From Corynebacterium sp. (lineage in GTDB: Bacteria; Actinomycetota; Actinomycetes; Mycobacteriales; Mycobacteriaceae), in contig NZ_JAUNLS010000001.1 of the NCBI RefSeq assembly GCF_030532325.1, positions 1 to 64,000 on the forward strand: a DNA stretch of 64,000 bases, written 5' to 3'. Of the stretch, positions 4,795-30,766 are shown piece by piece. Each line of letters opens with the position of its first letter. Within the stretch, counting starts at the first letter, position 1. The notes beneath the pieces are model-generated. The model worked only from the letters and a program-made list of their open reading frames with translations, had not been told where the DNA came from and did not search any database. The position numbers and the translations under genes are program-made.

Positions 4795-6131
4795 ATCCCG
4801 GGTGCGCTCTGCATAACGCTCGGGGTACGAACCGGCAAAAAAGCACGATTAAAGTTGTGCCGCCAAGTTCCAATCGGATTGTTTACCTTTGGATTAGCCC
4901 CGTATTCACCGTAATAAACGTTTTCATTGCCGAGCTCGTGTTTGTACTTCGCGATCATATTCGCGTCGGAGGTAAACACATGATCAAACTTCTCTGCGAT
5001 GGGCAGAAAGTAGTCAGAATTCGATGGATCCTCGATCGATTGAAAAATTGTAGGAACATCGTGCCTCTTAGCCCAATGTAAGATACCGTCTAGTGCAGTA
5101 GCAGGCTTTTCCCTGAACTTAACACCCTTCCACTCCTCGTCAGATAGTCCTTTCCAGCACGTCACGTAAAGGATGGCGTCGACCGGGGTATCCTCCAGCT
5201 GCCGTGAGTAATTTTCCGGGGTAAGATAGATGACTTCTTCAAAAGCATCTTTATAAAAATTGTACATGTACTCGTCAGTTATGATACCCAAACGAGCGGA
5301 AATCTTATGATAGTGCCGAGAGCCGTTAGAGGTCGGCAACGACGCCGCCATCTCGCTGAGCACCTCGCGCACCATCACTTCGCGTGCGGCCGAAATAGGC
5401 CCATCCGAACGAGCTGAAACCACCGTCGAACGGGGCTCTGCCGCACCTGAAATATCTCCTCCCTGCAACTCTAAAGCAAGTAGCTCATCTCTAACGATGT
5501 TGAGGTTTGCTTCGGTGCTATCGAGACGCTCAAAAAGCTCCCTAAGCTTAGGAGATCCCGCGCGTTTCAAGTCGTGAATTTGAGTGACCTTACCCTCACC
5601 GAGTTCACCTTGCACTCGGGAGTAGTCCATCGAGATCCAGTTGACTGAGATCTCCCCTCGGCCAACCAACCTAAGACACGGCAGAATGTACTTTGTGTTT
5701 GGGTTGAGCCGCACAAGTGCACCGCGACTCGGAGCTAGCGTAGCTTCACCGATACGCTTCCGCGTAGCATCAAATTCCAAAATAACGACAGTGCAGCGGA
5801 CATTTGTTGTCGTTGAGACCGAAACCTGCACGCCAATACGTTCTGCGCCCTGGGTTTCGAAACCAGAACTTCTGCCCAACTTCTTAAAATCACGGTCGGT
5901 GCCGTTGTTCACCAAGTAAACCGGCCCGTCATCGGAAAGGGTTACCTCGGTTCGCCCCAGTGTATCCACAGAAACTCTTGGAGGGTTCAAGAGCCTCGAG
6001 CTCCATCCTCGCGATGATACAAAACTGCCCGAGGTGTTTGCGATGTCAAAGAAGCGGTAAGCTGGCGAAACAACCTTGCCCGCAGCTTCCGAATTGCGTA
6101 TCCTACCCCAAATCTTTTTCCCGTATTTCAT
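4791..6131 (-). CDS. Glycosyltransferase, N-terminal part (CgeB-like), frame-shifted
   Basis: Open frame whose C-terminal half resembles the N-terminal Rossmann lobe of CgeB-like glycosyltransferases (RLGIITDEYM, then TIFQSIEDPSNSDYF and FDHVFTSD). The first ~200 residues look like a beta-rich accessory region with short acidic stretches. The last ~15 residues after NRAF diverge because the frame has slipped. ATG 6131 is preferred because GGAAAGCCGAGGAG lies just upstream, though the AGGAG spacing is short; a GTG at 6149 is the alternative. It leads the leftward group containing the pyruvyl transferase and wecC, divergent from the ABC exporter. Confidence 0.68.
   Translation of the reverse strand: MKYGKKIWGRIRNSEAAGKVVSPAYRFFDIANTSGSFVSSRGWSSRLLNPPRVSVDTLGRTEVTLSDDGPVYLVNNGTDRDFKKLGRSSGFETQGAERIGVQVSVSTTTNVRCTVVILEFDATRKRIGEATLAPSRGALVRLNPNTKYILPCLRLVGRGEISVNWISMDYSRVQGELGEGKVTQIHDLKRAGSPKLRELFERLDSTEANLNIVRDELLALELQGGDISGAAEPRSTVVSARSDGPISAAREVMVREVLSEMAASLPTSNGSRHYHKISARLGIITDEYMYNFYKDAFEEVIYLTPENYSRQLEDTPVDAILYVTCWKGLSDEEWKGVKFREKPATALDGILHWAKRHDVPTIFQSIEDPSNSDYFLPIAEKFDHVFTSDANMIAKYKHELGNENVYYGEYGANPKVNNPIGTWRHNFNRAFLPVRTPSVMQSAPGI
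4837..4842 (-). other. Homopolymer frameshift site in the large glycosyltransferase
   Basis: The coding strand carries six T residues in the context GCT TTT TTG. In the upstream frame this reads A-F-L-P and soon stops. A -1 shift gives A-F-F-A-G-S-Y-P-E-R, which continues into the downstream ORF. The heptamer T TTT TTG fits the X XXY YYZ rule for -1 slippage. Loss of one T from an ancestral run of seven is the simpler explanation. Either way the two ORFs belong to one ancestral gene. Confidence 0.75.
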
Positions 6132-6160
6132 CGCTCCTCGGCTTTCCACATCCCGGTTAA

Positions 6161-6188
6161 TTGATCCATAACTTCAGGGAAGTATAGT
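6161..6188 (+). promoter_or_regulatory. Sigma-A-type promoter for the polysaccharide ABC exporter
   Basis: TTGATC at 6161-6166 and TATAGT at 6183-6188 are separated by 16 bases and face the exporter genes. The implied leader to ATG 6362 is about 165 bases. Prediction is by consensus only. Confidence 0.5.
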
Positions 6189-6361
6189 CGATCAATGGAG
6201 TCGAGTCTTGCCCGAAGACAGAAATTCCTTGTCGCACCTTTTGCCATACAAGAACACACACGGCGTTCCAAGACGGCTTTTACTTTTAGCGGAAACAGCC
6301 AAATGATGCAGTGCACGTTATGTGCAGCTTACATAGACATTTACGAAAAAGAAGCGAATCA

Positions 6362-7225
6362 ATGAATAGTAAGACTGAAGAAACACTACTCGTCGACAGC
6401 AGCCATCTTCATCCAGTTTTCACTCGGCCAGGTTTTATTTCATATATCGGCTTAATTTGGTCCCGTCGCCACTTTATCTTGCTTGACGCAAAAAGTCGCG
6501 CTTTCAATACGGGAAATGGAACATTTCTTGGGAAATTCTGGATACTACTAAATCCTGCATTCCAGGTCGCGGTGTACGCTTTGGTTTTTGGAGTGATTCT
6601 CAAGACCACCCGAGGTATCGACAATTTCGTAGGGTTTCTAACGATCGGCGTTATCTACTTCGGATTCTTTAGCAAAGGCTTAAACGGCGGCGTAAACCTA
6701 ATTCAGAAATCCAGAAGCTTTCTTTCCACTTTCAGCTTTCCTGCTGCTTCTTTAGTTTTTTCCCTCAATCTTCGACAGTTTATCGACAACTTAGCCCCAG
6801 CAACGGTCGCAGTCATCTTCGCCCTGCTACTACAACCTAAAGATCCTCCAAACTTCTCCATATTTGGCTTGATACCTTTATATATACTGATCTCAGTATT
6901 CAATATTGGGCTAACATTCATAGTTGCGAGAGCGACTGCTTTCATCCCCGATCTGAAGTCCATCTTAAATGTGTTCACCCGAGGATTGTTTTTTATCTCC
7001 GGTGTCTTCTACTCTGTCGAAAGGTTCAGCTCTAACACGCAGGTAGAGAAGATCGTCGAGTACAATCCGATTTATACTTTTTTACAATGCGTGCGCCAGA
7101 TTGTCCTAGACGGCCAGTTGCCTTCTTTGGCTACTTGGACTTACTTGTCCGTCTGGACTATCGGCCTTTCTACTATCGGTATATTGTATTTTTGGCAAGC
7201 GGAGAATAGGTATGTTGCCAGTTGA
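6362..7225 (+). CDS. Polysaccharide ABC-2 type exporter, permease subunit (Wzm/TagG-like)
   Basis: Inner-membrane permease of a two-component exporter that moves a lipid-linked polysaccharide across the membrane with the ATPase encoded next. About 287 residues with a soluble amphipathic N-terminus and roughly six hydrophobic segments, the layout of the ABC-2 (TagG/Wzm) family. ATG 6362 is chosen because it places the conserved N-terminal helix correctly; an in-frame ATG at 6311 would add 17 residues without precedent. The ribosome binding site is weak (AAGAAGCG). Its last 14 bases overlap the ATPase gene, implying translational coupling. The exported polymer is inferred from the surrounding transferases. 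Confidence 0.85.
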   Translation: MNSKTEETLLVDSSHLHPVFTRPGFISYIGLIWSRRHFILLDAKSRAFNTGNGTFLGKFWILLNPAFQVAVYALVFGVILKTTRGIDNFVGFLTIGVIYFGFFSKGLNGGVNLIQKSRSFLSTFSFPAASLVFSLNLRQFIDNLAPATVAVIFALLLQPKDPPNFSIFGLIPLYILISVFNIGLTFIVARATAFIPDLKSILNVFTRGLFFISGVFYSVERFSSNTQVEKIVEYNPIYTFLQCVRQIVLDGQLPSLATWTYLSVWTIGLSTIGILYFWQAENRYVAS

Positions 7226-26924: not shown

Positions 26925-27647
26925 CTACTGCTCCATCACGCCCAAGGAAGAAAGCCGGCGCTCCAGGTGCCACTGCAGGTGCGCGCGGATGAGTTGATGC
27001 GCCTCCTGCGCCTGGGCGTGGGTGGGCGAGCTGGCGTGACCGTGGGCCAGCAGCCACATGTGGTGCAAGCTTTCCGGGTCCACCTCCGCGGCCCCCGGCG
27101 GGCGGCACTCGTGGCAGCAGGCCCCGCCGACGGCCGGGTGGAAGGCGTGGTGCGGGCCCGGGCGTTGGCACTGGGCGCAGTCGAAGAGGCTGGGCGCCCA
27201 GCCAGCGTGCGCCATGGCCTGCAGCAGAAAGACGTCGAGGGTCTGCGTGGGCGGCTCGGCCTGCAGCCGGTGCAGCGTGGCGACGGTGAGATCGTAGAGG
27301 AAGGGGTCCCCGGCGGCGTCGGCAAAAGCCAGGCGCTCGGCCGTCTCCAGTGCGGCGCAGGCGCAGGTGTAGCGCTCGTAATCATCGATGATCTGCGCGC
27401 CGAAGTAATCCACGGTGTCCGCCTGCGAGATGGTGTGCAGGTTGCGGCCCGGGTAGAGCTGAACGTCGAGGTTGACAAAGAGCTGCAGGCGGGAGCCGAA
27501 GCGGGACTTCGCGCGGCGCACGCCCTTGGCCACCGCGCGCACCACACCATGGTGGCGGGTGAGCAGGACGATGACGCGATCCGCCTCCCCGAAGTCATAG
27601 GAGCGGATGACCAGCGCGCGGTCCCGGAAAGACTGCCTAGAAGCCAA
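26925..27647 (-). CDS. recO: DNA repair protein RecO
   Basis: Recombination mediator that loads RecA with RecR. About 240 residues: OB-fold N-terminus (SFRDRALVIRSYDFGEADRV) and a C-terminal zinc-type cluster (CAQC and CCHEC). No ATG gives a sensible N-terminus. TTG 27647 (read MASRQSFRDRA) places the conserved region correctly and overlaps the era stop by 11 bases. It lies between era and uppS on the same strand. Confidence 0.9.
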   Translation of the reverse strand: MASRQSFRDRALVIRSYDFGEADRVIVLLTRHHGVVRAVAKGVRRAKSRFGSRLQLFVNLDVQLYPGRNLHTISQADTVDYFGAQIIDDYERYTCACAALETAERLAFADAAGDPFLYDLTVATLHRLQAEPPTQTLDVFLLQAMAHAGWAPSLFDCAQCQRPGPHHAFHPAVGGACCHECRPPGAAEVDPESLHHMWLLAHGHASSPTHAQAQEAHQLIRAHLQWHLERRLSSLGVMEQ

Positions 27648-28578
27648 GGCGCCCCAGGTGCTTCGGGTCCTGCTGCCAGTTCTTGAGCACCTTGATGCGC
27701 AGGTCAAGGTAGACGTTTTGCCCCAGCAGCTGGATAATTTCCTTACGGGCCGTGCCGATGATGCGGTTGAAGCGGCGCCCGTCCTTGCCCTCGATGATGC
27801 GGCGCTGGCCGGGGCGCTCCAGGTACATCACGGCGTGCACGTTGAGCACGCCCGGGCGATCATGATCGGGCAGAATCTCATCGACCTCGACCGCCACCGA
27901 GTGCGGCAGCTCCGCGCGCAGGCCGGACAGCGCGGCCTCGCGGATGAGCTCGGCGATGCGCTCCTCCTGGTCCTCGTCCGTGATGTGATCATCCGGGTAG
28001 AACTTGGGCCCCTCGGGCAGGTGATCCACGATGACCTGGACTAGCTCATCGAGCTGCACGCGCTGCGTGGCGGAGACCGGGATGACCACGGCCTCGGGGT
28101 TGTCCTGGCTGAGCAGCTCGTGCAGGGCCAGCAGCTGGGCGCCGACCTGATCCTTGCTGGCCTTATCCAGCTTGGTGACGATGCCAATGATCGGCGTCTT
28201 CGGCGCCACCTTGCGCACGTTTTCGAGGATCCAGCGGTCGCCAGGGCCGATCTTCTCATCGGCGGGGATGGTCAGGCCGATGACGTCGACATCAGCGTAG
28301 GTGTCCTTGACCACCTCGTTGAGGCGCTCGCCCAGCAGCGTGCGCGGGCGGTGCAGGCCGGGGGTGTCGACGACGACCACCTGCGCGTCCTCGCGATGCA
28401 CCAAGCCGCGGATGGGGTGGCGGGTGGTTTCGGGCTGGTCGGCGGTGATGGCAATCTTCTCGCCCACGAGGGCGTTGGTCAGCGTGGACTTGCCGGTGTT
28501 GGGACGGCCCACGAAGGACACGAATCCGGAGCGGAAGCCCTCGGGCGTGTCGGTGAACTGTGTGTAGTCATTACTCAT
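27637..28578 (-). CDS. era: GTPase Era
   Basis: Essential GTPase that binds the 3' end of 16S rRNA during 30S assembly. About 313 residues: G1 GRPNTGKST, G3 DTPG, G4 TKLD, and a C-terminal KH domain including the basic helix ending in FNRIIGTARKE. ATG 28578 (MSNDYTQ) is preferred over GTG 28584; TAAGAT at 28592-28587 lies eight bases before it, implying its own leaderless promoter. That promoter sits just inside the edge of the repeat-flanked insertion upstream. Confidence 0.94.
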   Translation of the reverse strand: MSNDYTQFTDTPEGFRSGFVSFVGRPNTGKSTLTNALVGEKIAITADQPETTRHPIRGLVHREDAQVVVVDTPGLHRPRTLLGERLNEVVKDTYADVDVIGLTIPADEKIGPGDRWILENVRKVAPKTPIIGIVTKLDKASKDQVGAQLLALHELLSQDNPEAVVIPVSATQRVQLDELVQVIVDHLPEGPKFYPDDHITDEDQEERIAELIREAALSGLRAELPHSVAVEVDEILPDHDRPGVLNVHAVMYLERPGQRRIIEGKDGRRFNRIIGTARKEIIQLLGQNVYLDLRIKVLKNWQQDPKHLGRLGF

Positions 28579-28658
28579 TTGCACTCATCTTAGCCCACTG
28601 CGTTGCAAGCCTTGGAGCCCTGACATACGCCGCGGTTGCACTCCCCTGCCGCAGATGG

Positions 28659-28750
28659 CTGAACCTGGACGGCTGAACCTCCAGGTGGGATGTGGGGGCG
28701 TCGGCAAGCGCGGCGTCGTGCGACCAGGAGGTTCAGCTATCCAGGTTCAG
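28659..28750. repeat. Inverted hairpin repeat, copy A, left end of the DUF559 unit
   Basis: 92 bp with two arms, each holding two octamers CTGAACCT at 14-base spacing (28659, 28673) or their complements (28729, 28743), around a 48-base loop. The loop matches the reverse complement of the loop in copy B. The stop codon of the enclosed gene lies in the innermost octamer. Confidence 0.85.
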
Positions 28751-29688
28751 ACTTCCTTGGATCCCCCGCCCCGCTGCAACGGGCGCGGCCCTGCCTGCAC
28801 CTGCCTGCGCACCGCCTCGACGAAGCCCTGCGGGTCCCGGCGCAGCTCCTCCGGGCTGTAGCGCATGACCACGTAGCCCTTGTTGAGCAGTGCTTTTTGC
28901 CGGCGGTGTTCCTCGCTGATGACCTCCTCGGGCTCGTAGCGGTACTTGACGTTGCCGTCGATTTCGATGAGCAACCACCCGTTCACCGCTAGGTCGGCGC
29001 GGTAGCGCTCCACCTCAAACTGCGTGCTGATGCGCTTGACTCCCGGGATGTTGGCCTCGATGAGCAGCCCGCGCGCGTAGGACTCCCACGGCGATTCGGA
29101 GTTGCTCACGCTTTCCTTCACCGCACGGCGCGCCTGCGCGATCCCTTTCACCCGCCCCATCGCGCCGAGCATGGAATCCAGGCGCTCGCGCCCGACCCGC
29201 TGTGAGCGCACATAATCCATCGCCACCAGGCCCTCTGCAAAGCCGTACCGCCTGGCAATATCGATCGCCGTACGCCCCAGCGAGCTGACGCGTACGCCTT
29301 CGACCTCGAGAATCTCCCGATTGAGCTTGGTGCGTACGTAGGCAAAGAAATGCCCGCGACCTTTGCTCCCCACCGCGTTAGATTCGAGGGTGACGGAATA
29401 CTTCTCTGTCTCAAAGAGCACGGGAATTCCCAAAATCATGGCCGCGGCTTTGTCCAGCAGGATGGCCTTCGGCGCTGTGAGCGCGTGCACATAAAGCCTG
29501 GCGATGTCCCTCTCCCACCGCGCCAAGCCGTACCACACCTGGCCCGGCATGGCGTAGCACCAGGCCAGCGTGGGCATTTTACCGTTGTGGATCTTTTGCC
29601 AGCGGGCATCGCTGTTGGGCAGGCGGCGGAGGTCGATGAGTTCGGCTTTGATTCGGCGCAGGAGGGCAGAACGGGCGCTTTGTGACAT
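28747..29688 (-). CDS. DUF559 / Vsr-like PD-(D/E)XK endonuclease-fold protein with AbiEi-like N-terminus
   Basis: 313 residues. The N-terminal two thirds resemble AbiEi-type proteins often fused to this domain. The C-terminal ~100 residues look like DUF559: SPWES (E), YRADLAV (D) and LIEIDG (E-x-D) form a PD-(D/E)XK-like acidic set, followed by KGYVVMRYSPEEL. Such domains are related to very-short-patch repair endonucleases. The reading frame ends inside repeat copy A. TAAAAG lies six bases before ATG 29688. Standalone genes of this type are common in actinobacteria and their role is not established. The flanking inverted repeats are the unusual part. Confidence 0.78.
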   Translation of the reverse strand: MSQSARSALLRRIKAELIDLRRLPNSDARWQKIHNGKMPTLAWCYAMPGQVWYGLARWERDIARLYVHALTAPKAILLDKAAAMILGIPVLFETEKYSVTLESNAVGSKGRGHFFAYVRTKLNREILEVEGVRVSSLGRTAIDIARRYGFAEGLVAMDYVRSQRVGRERLDSMLGAMGRVKGIAQARRAVKESVSNSESPWESYARGLLIEANIPGVKRISTQFEVERYRADLAVNGWLLIEIDGNVKYRYEPEEVISEEHRRQKALLNKGYVVMRYSPEELRRDPQGFVEAVRRQVQAGPRPLQRGGGSKEV

Positions 29689-29766
29689 GCCTTACTTTTA
29701 GCGCACCGGGCCGCACTTCGCTGACTAACAGATAGGCTCAGCAGATCAGCTCTGTCGGCCAAAGAG

Positions 29767-29857
29767 CTGAACCTGGATGGCTGAACCTCATGGTCGTGCT
29801 TCGCCACGCTTGTCGACGCCGCTATCACCACCTGCAGGTTCAGCCATCCAGGTTCAG
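29767..29857. repeat. Inverted hairpin repeat, copy B, right end of the DUF559 unit
   Basis: 91 bp with octamers CTGAACCT at 29767 and 29781 and AGGTTCAG at 29836 and 29850, around a 47-base loop. Aligned as the reverse complement of copy A it agrees at roughly four bases in five, including the loop, so the two copies are inverted with respect to each other. Confidence 0.85.
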
Positions 29858-29917
29858 ACTTTTGCACAATGGAGGGGTGCGGAATGGGGACGGCAGGCTG
29901 GAGGGACGGGCTGCGGC

Positions 29918-30766
29918 CTAGAGCTCCTCCACGTGGAACTGCAGGCGCGGGTGCGCAAAGTATTCCTGGGACTCCACCAGCTGCAGCTCCTCGCTTTCGG
30001 CCTCAAAGGTGACATTCAGCAGGTCAAAGACCGAGGAGGCCGTGCGCTTGAGCGCCAGCTTCGCGTCGTGGGTCTCCACGTAGTGGCCGGTAAACAGCGC
30101 GGCGGTGACGTCGCCGGAGCCGTTGCGCTTGAAGGGCAGGAAGGGGGTGGCCACGATGTAGGCGCGCTCGCCGTCGACAGCCAGCATCTCCACGGTGTCC
30201 TCCGGGGTCTCCGGGCGCTTAACCGAGGTCACCAGCACCGTCTTCGGGCCAATCTCCTGCGCCACCTTGACCGCGGCCAGGGTCTGCTCCAGGGTGCCGA
30301 CCTCATGATCGGTGAGGTAGCCTAGCTCGAACTGGTTCGGGGTGATGATGTCGGCCACGGGGACCACCTTGTCGCGCAGCAGCGGCGGGATCTCATCGGA
30401 AACGAAGCAACCGGACTTGGCGTTGCCCATCACCGGGTCGCAGGCGTAGAGGGCGGAGGGGTTGACGGCCTTGATGCGGCGGACGGCGTCGATAATGGCG
30501 CCGGCGATATCGGAACCACCCTGGTAGCCGGAGAGGATCGCATCGATGCGGGGGAAGGCGCCGCGCTTTTCGATGCCGTCCACAATCGAGGTCACATCCG
30601 TCGCCGGAATCATCGGCCCGCCCCAATCGCCGTATCCGGTGTGGTTGGAGAAGTTCACGGTGTGGATGGGCCACACCTCATGGCCGCAGCGCTGCAGCGG
30701 GAAGACGGCGGCGGAGTTGCCAACGTGGCCGAAGGTGACGTGGGACTGGATGGAAAGAATGTTCAT
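29918..30766 (-). CDS. pdxY: Pyridoxal kinase PdxY
   Basis: Phosphorylates pyridoxal to pyridoxal 5'-phosphate in vitamin B6 salvage. 282 residues of the ribokinase-like fold: ILSIQSHVTFGHVGNSAA at the start, DPVMGNAKSG, and the anion-hole/catalytic NGSGDVTAALF near residue 210. Length is typical of PdxY. It is separated from ybeY by 84 bases and from the DUF559 unit by about 60 bases, in the same orientation. Confidence 0.92.
   Translation of the reverse strand: MNILSIQSHVTFGHVGNSAAVFPLQRCGHEVWPIHTVNFSNHTGYGDWGGPMIPATDVTSIVDGIEKRGAFPRIDAILSGYQGGSDIAGAIIDAVRRIKAVNPSALYACDPVMGNAKSGCFVSDEIPPLLRDKVVPVADIITPNQFELGYLTDHEVGTLEQTLAAVKVAQEIGPKTVLVTSVKRPETPEDTVEMLAVDGERAYIVATPFLPFKRNGSGDVTAALFTGHYVETHDAKLALKRTASSVFDLLNVTFEAESEELQLVESQEYFAHPRLQFHVEEL

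Follow-up and report, generated by a model that had tools for sequence, protein, structure and literature searches.

Nuclease genes of the DUF559/MTES_1575 type in Corynebacterium are tightly associated with palindromes of one common design and of gene-specific sequence, which diverge at fixed loci, as the nucleases do, and can also be found as dispersed copies; solo sites, harboring a palindrome and no gene, and empty sites exist as well. It can be hypothesized, with a probability of about 0.5, that such a pair is an independently evolved analogue of the RAYT/REPIN systems, with a restriction-like nuclease maintaining a palindrome family of its own, the binding, cutting and copying of these palindromes being what we infer from the sequences. 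The pair from which the analysis started is located in the window, i.e., a stretch of 64,000 nucleotides from a Corynebacterium sp. genome (G000; 2.49 Mb, 33 contigs).

The Nuclease and Its Flanking Palindromes Between era and pdxY

The nuclease gene (28747-29688, minus strand, 313 amino acids, recognized as an ORF and by Pfam) lies between palindrome copies A (28659-28750, 92 bp) and B (29767-29857, 91 bp), to which no strand is assigned, and its TGA stop codon (28747-28749) falls in the last octamer of A. The coordinates agree with the original prediction of a 313-codon gene ending within copy A, and NCBIfam models confirm both conserved neighbours that it had named, era (27637-28584, minus strand, NF000908) and pdxY (29918-30766, minus strand, NF004398). 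Both copies have the layout CTGAACCT-N6-CTGAACCT, about 47 bp of inner sequence and AGGTTCAG-N6-AGGTTCAG; each thus harbors four octamers, two per arm and 14 bp apart start to start, beginning at 28659, 28673, 28729, and 28743 in A and at 29767, 29781, 29836, and 29850 in B. The inner part of B is inverted relative to that of A (alignment score 22 inverted vs. 7 direct), which bears out the claim that the loops match only upon inversion, and a 54-nt arm pair between A and B is 85% complementary. As single-stranded DNA, both copies, being inverted repeat doublets, can form a hairpin, with z scores against shuffles of -6.1 and -5.1 for A and of -9.0 and -9.7 for B. Possible decayed outer 14-bp units, likewise unstranded, adjoin A on the left (28651-28658, arm pairing reaching 28651 or 28654) and B on the right (ACTTTTGC, 29858-29865); such outer units are clearer in other copies of the family. 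A consensus scan of positions 28500-30000 found neither a promoter-like nor a terminator-like site, and a plain terminator was rejected on that ground.

Regarding the protein, the C-terminal PD-(D/E)XK nuclease domain covers approximately residues 199-297 (28798-29094, minus strand), as supported by the Pfam stretch 219-297 and by invariant residues. DUF559 is matched above its cut-off (E 3e-6, 27.5 bits, cut-off 20.6) and MTES_1575 under its cut-off (E 1.5e-7, 31.8 bits, cut-off 38.2), no NCBIfam model matches at E 0.001, and an alignment profile retrieves the "Endonuclease-Like Protein" PDB 3hrl at E 1.1e-6. E202, D232, E242, D244, and K248, which we take to be the active-site (catalytic) residues of the PD-(D/E)XK fold, are invariant in 30 of 30 aligned proteins, and the nuclease domain predicted earlier is upheld by these putative catalytic positions together with the DUF559 match. 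The N-terminal part, approximately residues 50-190 (29119-29541, minus strand), corresponds to a region that is AbiEi-like, and presumably DNA-binding, in some homologues: PADLOC gave AbiEi matches with E up to 0.01 in 7 of the 10 proteins scanned (best 5.2e-11) and none for the window's own protein. A defence system was rejected, AbiEi matches being all that PADLOC returned. Vsr-like/DUF559 endonucleases such as VsrA of Caulobacter belong to the same nuclease domain family; VsrA has been connected with cytosine methylation and mismatch repair, and palindromes go unmentioned in the available part of that source (PMC12907096).

Homologues of the nuclease can be found in 169 of 242 genus genomes, the own one included, and relatives with 50-58% identity in nine genomes. 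In the 60 regions analyzed below, 57 of the matched nuclease frames are free of stops. A search of 50,697 phage records gave no nuclease match, and one of 72,556 plasmid records gave two, both below 33% identity.

The Palindrome Family in the Own Genome

Two octamers 14 bp apart, searched as a pattern with at most two mismatches, have 39 matches in the own genome and none for the reversed control, confirming the paired-octamer copies that had been described around an inner part. Most of these matches assemble into complete elements, 14 in number, of which 13 measure 91 bp and one 92 bp; 12 of them come in addition to A and B and had been overlooked by the original prediction. It had also overlooked further decayed 14-bp units in the element flanks, and each arm is therefore a short array of 14-bp units, best kept near the centre. 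According to a crude ORF model, all but one of the 12 solo copies are located in intergenic gaps, the remaining one falling within the 5'-terminal part of a predicted ORF. With at most one mismatch, the CTGAACCT pattern has matches in 9 of 201 genus genomes, 31 in the own genome and one in each of eight others, and its reversed control has a match in 4 of the 200 other genus genomes; the pattern is at chance level in these 200 genomes and species-specific in the sample. A further contig scan for the own stem elsewhere, in a collection that may exclude the own genome, gave no match. Gene-free palindromes do occur elsewhere.

A second family (stem GTCTAGCCCTGGAAGTACAGACCT), akin to the CTGAACCT family in its inner part, is found at seven places in the genome, at four of them near a CTGAACCT element (L066:2251-2343, L067:1848-1942, L070:1844-1938, and L072:1802-1894).

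Within the own-genome elements, arms match their own partner no better than those of other elements (20.2 vs. 19.9 of 22; 1442 of 10000 permutations as good), and hairpin covariation is thus unsupported in this genome by the arm-matching permutation test. At gathering score, Rfam gave only four tRNA matches over the 14 element-bearing loci. An RNA element was rejected, with neither an Rfam family nor arm covariation in the own genome to sustain it, and because of the missing covariation the elements fit duplex DNA sites better than conserved RNA.

Palindromes Beside Homologous Nuclease Genes

From about 150 listed places in the genus, 60 were taken down the ranking, some near-duplicates and contig ends being left out, each as the gene with 6 kb on either side. 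A strict finder (24-nt arms with at least 19 matches, length 74-126 bp) called 69 palindromes in these 770,712 bp, of which 42 lie within 250 bp of a nuclease gene and none inside it. Strong palindromes were found within 250 bp of 36 of the 60 genes, which are mutually non-independent and come in many cases from draft genomes, as compared with a mean of 0.74 and a maximum of 6 of 60 in 1000 trials with displaced pseudo-genes in the same regions. The remaining 24 genes have no palindrome at the strict threshold, which is arbitrary and misses weaker cases, e.g., the copy beside the gene of G142, seen by eye only. Other DUF559-type genes thus do have flanks similar to those in the window, which was one of the checks proposed beforehand. 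Palindromes are located on the 3' side of 26 genes, on the 5' side of 15 and on both sides of five.

These positions bear on the main rival explanation, a control site, in which the AbiEi-like part would bind the adjacent palindrome to set the expression of a harmful nuclease, the dispersed copies being secondary targets or decoys. AbiEi antitoxins of type IV toxin-antitoxin systems bind inverted repeats in their own promoter and autoregulate (PMC7319586). The N-terminal similarity seen in 7 of 10 proteins, the 18 palindromes ending 32-203 bp upstream of the longest-ORF start, and one family (GGTAACC) with single-copy, gene-adjacent palindromes are consistent with such a role. Here, however, the AbiEi-like part is fused to a nuclease, palindromes are more often 3' than 5' of the gene, and in 8 of 28 cases the start of the palindrome falls between -5 and +6 bp from the stop codon. 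In addition, the window gene has era and pdxY as neighbours and no toxin partner, an AbiEii nucleotidyltransferase toxin being absent beside it, and 12 solo copies exist in the own genome. A control site is therefore regarded as rather unlikely, and the preferred reading remains a nuclease with a private palindrome family.

The original prediction had described an insertion sequence-sized unit framed by inverted repeats. Orientation of palindrome pairs was scored as direct vs. inverted and called where the scores differ by at least 20, other pairs being ambiguous. Four pairs are inverted (those of the window, G035, G050, and G167) and seven direct (those of two genes of G100, of G185, G011, and G056, and of L253 and L263 outside the genus). 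A predominance of direct pairs in relatives was rejected, as scoring gives a mixed orientation; the two members of a pair are thus not fixed in their relative orientation. Hence the inverted ends of the predicted insertion sequence hold for the window pair, and the generalization fails, since orientation varies between relatives and no target duplication was seen. As for an insertion sequence-like unit defined by terminal inverted repeats, the claim is not sustained, given the mixed orientation and the 46 of 60 regions at common loci. No target-site duplication was seen by eye, in a setting where insertion boundaries are indistinct because close relatives are lacking, and the gene between the copies encodes a DUF559-type nuclease where a transposase would be expected. 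Bacterial MITEs and insertion sequences resemble the present case in their short dispersed palindromes and in a gene unit of about 1.2 kb; the differences are that the unit has no transposase and no visible target duplication, that pair orientation varies and that many of the genes are at common loci.

Shared Design and Pairing of Enzymes with Stems

Stems are unrelated between most genes. For the 46 palindromes located no more than 300 bp from a gene (40 genes), arm autocorrelation at 14 bp is 0.417 as compared with 0.256 after shuffling (z = 19), and 14 bp is the sole positive peak between 5 and 24 bp. The differing stems share one design, namely two half-sites 14 bp apart per arm. For the 18 palindromes far from a gene, some of which belong to the same families, the period is weak (z 3.2). 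The proposal that the repeats are only terminators fits poorly with gene-specific stems and a strict 14-bp period.

Among the 41 genes with palindromes, all eight nuclease pairs with at least 80% identity share stems (arm scores 21-32), and pairs below 60% identity have stem scores averaging 6-7, which equals background. Overall, nuclease and stem similarity are weakly correlated (Spearman 0.09, reached by 64 of 2000 permutations), and the pairing claim is therefore limited to close nuclease pairs, in which the signal lies and where common descent also predicts part of it.

Outside the genus, a homologue was found in 73 of the 198 genomes of a phylum sample, the own one included. A strict palindrome is located within 450 bp of the gene at 11 of 29 other loci (17 palindromes near, 2 farther off), and six of the 11 have palindromes with similar stems on both sides. 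Such palindromes are concentrated in the best-ranked loci (9 of 11 vs. 2 of the 18 lower-ranked), so the trait belongs mainly to one part of the nuclease family. At a relaxed threshold, the lower-ranked L263 also has a palindrome pair. Four of the loci come from the family to which the window's genome belongs; a strict palindrome is located at one of them, and a pair at the relaxed threshold at another. In this sample outside the genus, the 14-bp period does not reach significance (z 1.9).

Occupied, Solo and Empty Loci

When sorted by flank DNA, 46 of the 60 regions fall, together with the window, into seven shared loci and one pair. The largest, icd-metY (named from one member), comprises 16 regions, and its palindromes differ between many of its species. 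At era-pdxY, two genomes of the C. striatum group hold the gene at the same place as the window, with 56-57% nuclease identity as compared with 91% for Era and 90% for PdxY, and both of their flanking palindromes have another stem than the window's. At shared loci, nuclease and palindrome thus diverge while the neighbours align.

The proposed comparison of occupied and empty era-pdxY sites was fruitful: occupied, solo-palindrome and empty states can all be found. A relaxed finder was applied to 17 other genomes. In nine of them, the gap measures 302-825 bp, which could not accommodate the gene, and harbors between one and three palindromes from other families. Four genomes with gaps of 35-163 bp lack a palindrome, no palindrome was called in the 390-bp gap of another, and the last three contain a different insert, with no palindrome called in its first 1500 bases, the part that was read. 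The gap seems to be a palindrome hotspot, gathering palindromes of several families in G056, G100, G011, G084, G130, G167, G064, G190, and G225; the arms of some of these palindromes, judged by eye, consist of three to four tandem 14-bp units. In G084 (L200, intergenic 170-230), a palindrome measures 61 bp and is thus shorter than in G130, apparently through a deletion between two AAGGGACCA repeats.

At recG-rsmD, a gap of about 450 bp in the own genome accommodates two palindromes. Of 16 relatives searched, 15 were read; none of these has a palindrome there according to the strict finder, and in ten the gap measures 33-63 bp. A small ORF, biotinyl-lipoyl-like by eye, is located there in G035, G050, G208, and G072 (L236, L237, L246, and L247), of which seemingly just a remnant exists in the window's genome.

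At hutH-hutU, G011 has a directly oriented palindrome-gene-palindrome unit, and G185 and G167 have one palindrome between the same flanks; gene-bearing and solo versions therefore alternate at one site, as expected from recombination between copies or from gene gain at a palindrome. In G185, the solo palindrome that stands in place of the G011 unit is at L305:2010-2154. The own nuclease clade can be found at four or more loci, namely era-pdxY, beside a DASS transporter, hutH-hutU and beside a sucrose PTS gene.

A homing-type selfish gene could also be envisaged, which would cut cassette-free alleles so that repair copies gene and palindromes in, solo palindromes being recombination scars of gene loss. 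The states found at hutH-hutU and era-pdxY and the spread of the own clade over several loci point in this direction. Nevertheless, 46 of 60 regions are at a locus common with another species, 16 of them at icd-metY, whole palindromes and not two target halves flank the gene, and solo sites outnumber gene-bearing ones 12 to 1 in the own genome, and homing is regarded as improbable.

Copy Number and Dispersal of Palindrome Families

The window's CTGAACCT family has 14 copies. The TGCAGACCT family has matches in 10 of 20 genomes, at a handful of places each and some of them partial; in four of the ten (G056, G064, G190, and G225), the homologue search showed no nuclease of the 50-58% clade. Four TGCAGACCT sites, either solo or with a gene, are each occupied in at least three species, and movement is therefore rare in this family. 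In the AAACCCCGAC family, three places were found in G066 and two in G203 (12 genomes searched), and the GGTAACC family, searched in 18 genomes, has one place, beside the gene, in four of them and is partially matched in one more. Dispersal is therefore not general: the constant unit is the gene with an adjacent palindrome, and wide dispersal is found in some lineages only. The earlier suggestion of a non-transposase nuclease with REP-like cognate palindromes accords with the 36 of 60 flanked genes and with the existence of gene-free palindromes and of sites without either.

In G084, an insertion sequence with HTH_38 and rve domains, presumably IS30-like, is located inside four TGCAGACCT palindromes, including both flanks of the nuclease gene (L315:2169-3887 and 4975-6695; L311:2130-3868; L309:2147-5188). 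Apparent remnants of its end are located within palindromes of G185 and G130, and this element seems to target TGCAGACCT palindromes.

Passive hairpins, i.e., terminator- or MITE-like repeats moved by an unrelated transposase and accidentally located beside a nuclease gene, would agree with the T-rich stretch, such as ACTTTT, that follows several copies and with the insertions of the presumably IS30-like element in G084, and are already disfavoured as very improbable by the 36 of 60 genes with palindromes where 0.74 were expected, by gene-specific stems with a strict 14-bp period, by the missing terminator-like site in 28500-30000 and by the lack, in 20 genomes, of a Y1 transposase, the type covered by the search.

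Comparison with RAYT/REPIN Systems and Proposed Mechanism

In RAYT/REPIN systems, single-copy, vertically inherited enzyme genes are tied to their own inverted-repeat hairpins (PMC8049555; PMC3116915), the former source giving 69-235 REPINs per Escherichia coli genome. The nuclease-palindrome pairs share with them a chromosomal enzyme gene, apparently mostly at conserved loci, slow spread, rarity on plasmids and phages, and intergenic inverted repeat doublets able to form hairpins, with the enzyme tied to its own repeat group. The enzyme gene stands beside its own repeat family in 36 of 60 cases at the strict threshold; 46 of 60 regions are at a common locus, yet the own clade occupies at least four loci, and vertical inheritance at conserved loci may or may not apply to the nuclease. 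In contrast to RAYT/REPIN systems, the enzyme is a PD-(D/E)XK nuclease instead of a Y1 tyrosine transposase, half-sites recur every 14 bp within each arm, and there are about 1-14 places per family and genome (five families) as compared with 69-235 REPINs. A Y1 (HUH) transposase (Pfam PF01797) was found in none of 20 genomes, the own one included, with control search matches in 5 of 14, and a RAYT was rejected as the mover, being absent from the 20 genomes searched. No description of this nuclease-palindrome pairing was found in a literature search whose coverage stops short of subscription journals and preprints; of 14 papers naming DUF559, none deals with palindromes as judged from its title or the opening of its abstract.

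The analogue proposed here would be a two-part system, consisting of a chromosomal nuclease (an AbiEi-like N-terminal part and a PD-(D/E)XK domain) and a private palindrome with four presumed recognition half-sites, two per arm and 14 bp apart, the arms being mirrored around an inner hairpin. The nuclease would recognize its own palindrome, either as duplex or as extruded hairpin, and would cut or nick at it. Repair of the cuts may keep the copies alike, may occasionally copy the palindrome to a new intergenic site, and may add or remove 14-bp units. More tentatively, and with less confidence than in the analogy itself, such pairs could form a separate class of domesticated selfish DNA across actinobacteria, in which a fast-diversifying nuclease is combined with a mirrored half-site array and a shift of specificity rewrites the palindromes genome-wide with no transposase.

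If the analogy is true, the RAYT/REPIN way of life arose at least twice with unrelated enzymes, and would therefore be a general solution and not the oddity of one transposase. Likewise, the nuclease-palindrome pairs would amount to a natural collection of proteins and their matching DNA sites, so that recognition specificity could be studied from sequence. For a large family that is now named by a domain number only, it would then be possible to propose a function. With enzyme and site changing at one chromosomal position, the change of specificity between a selfish repeat and its enzyme would become directly testable.
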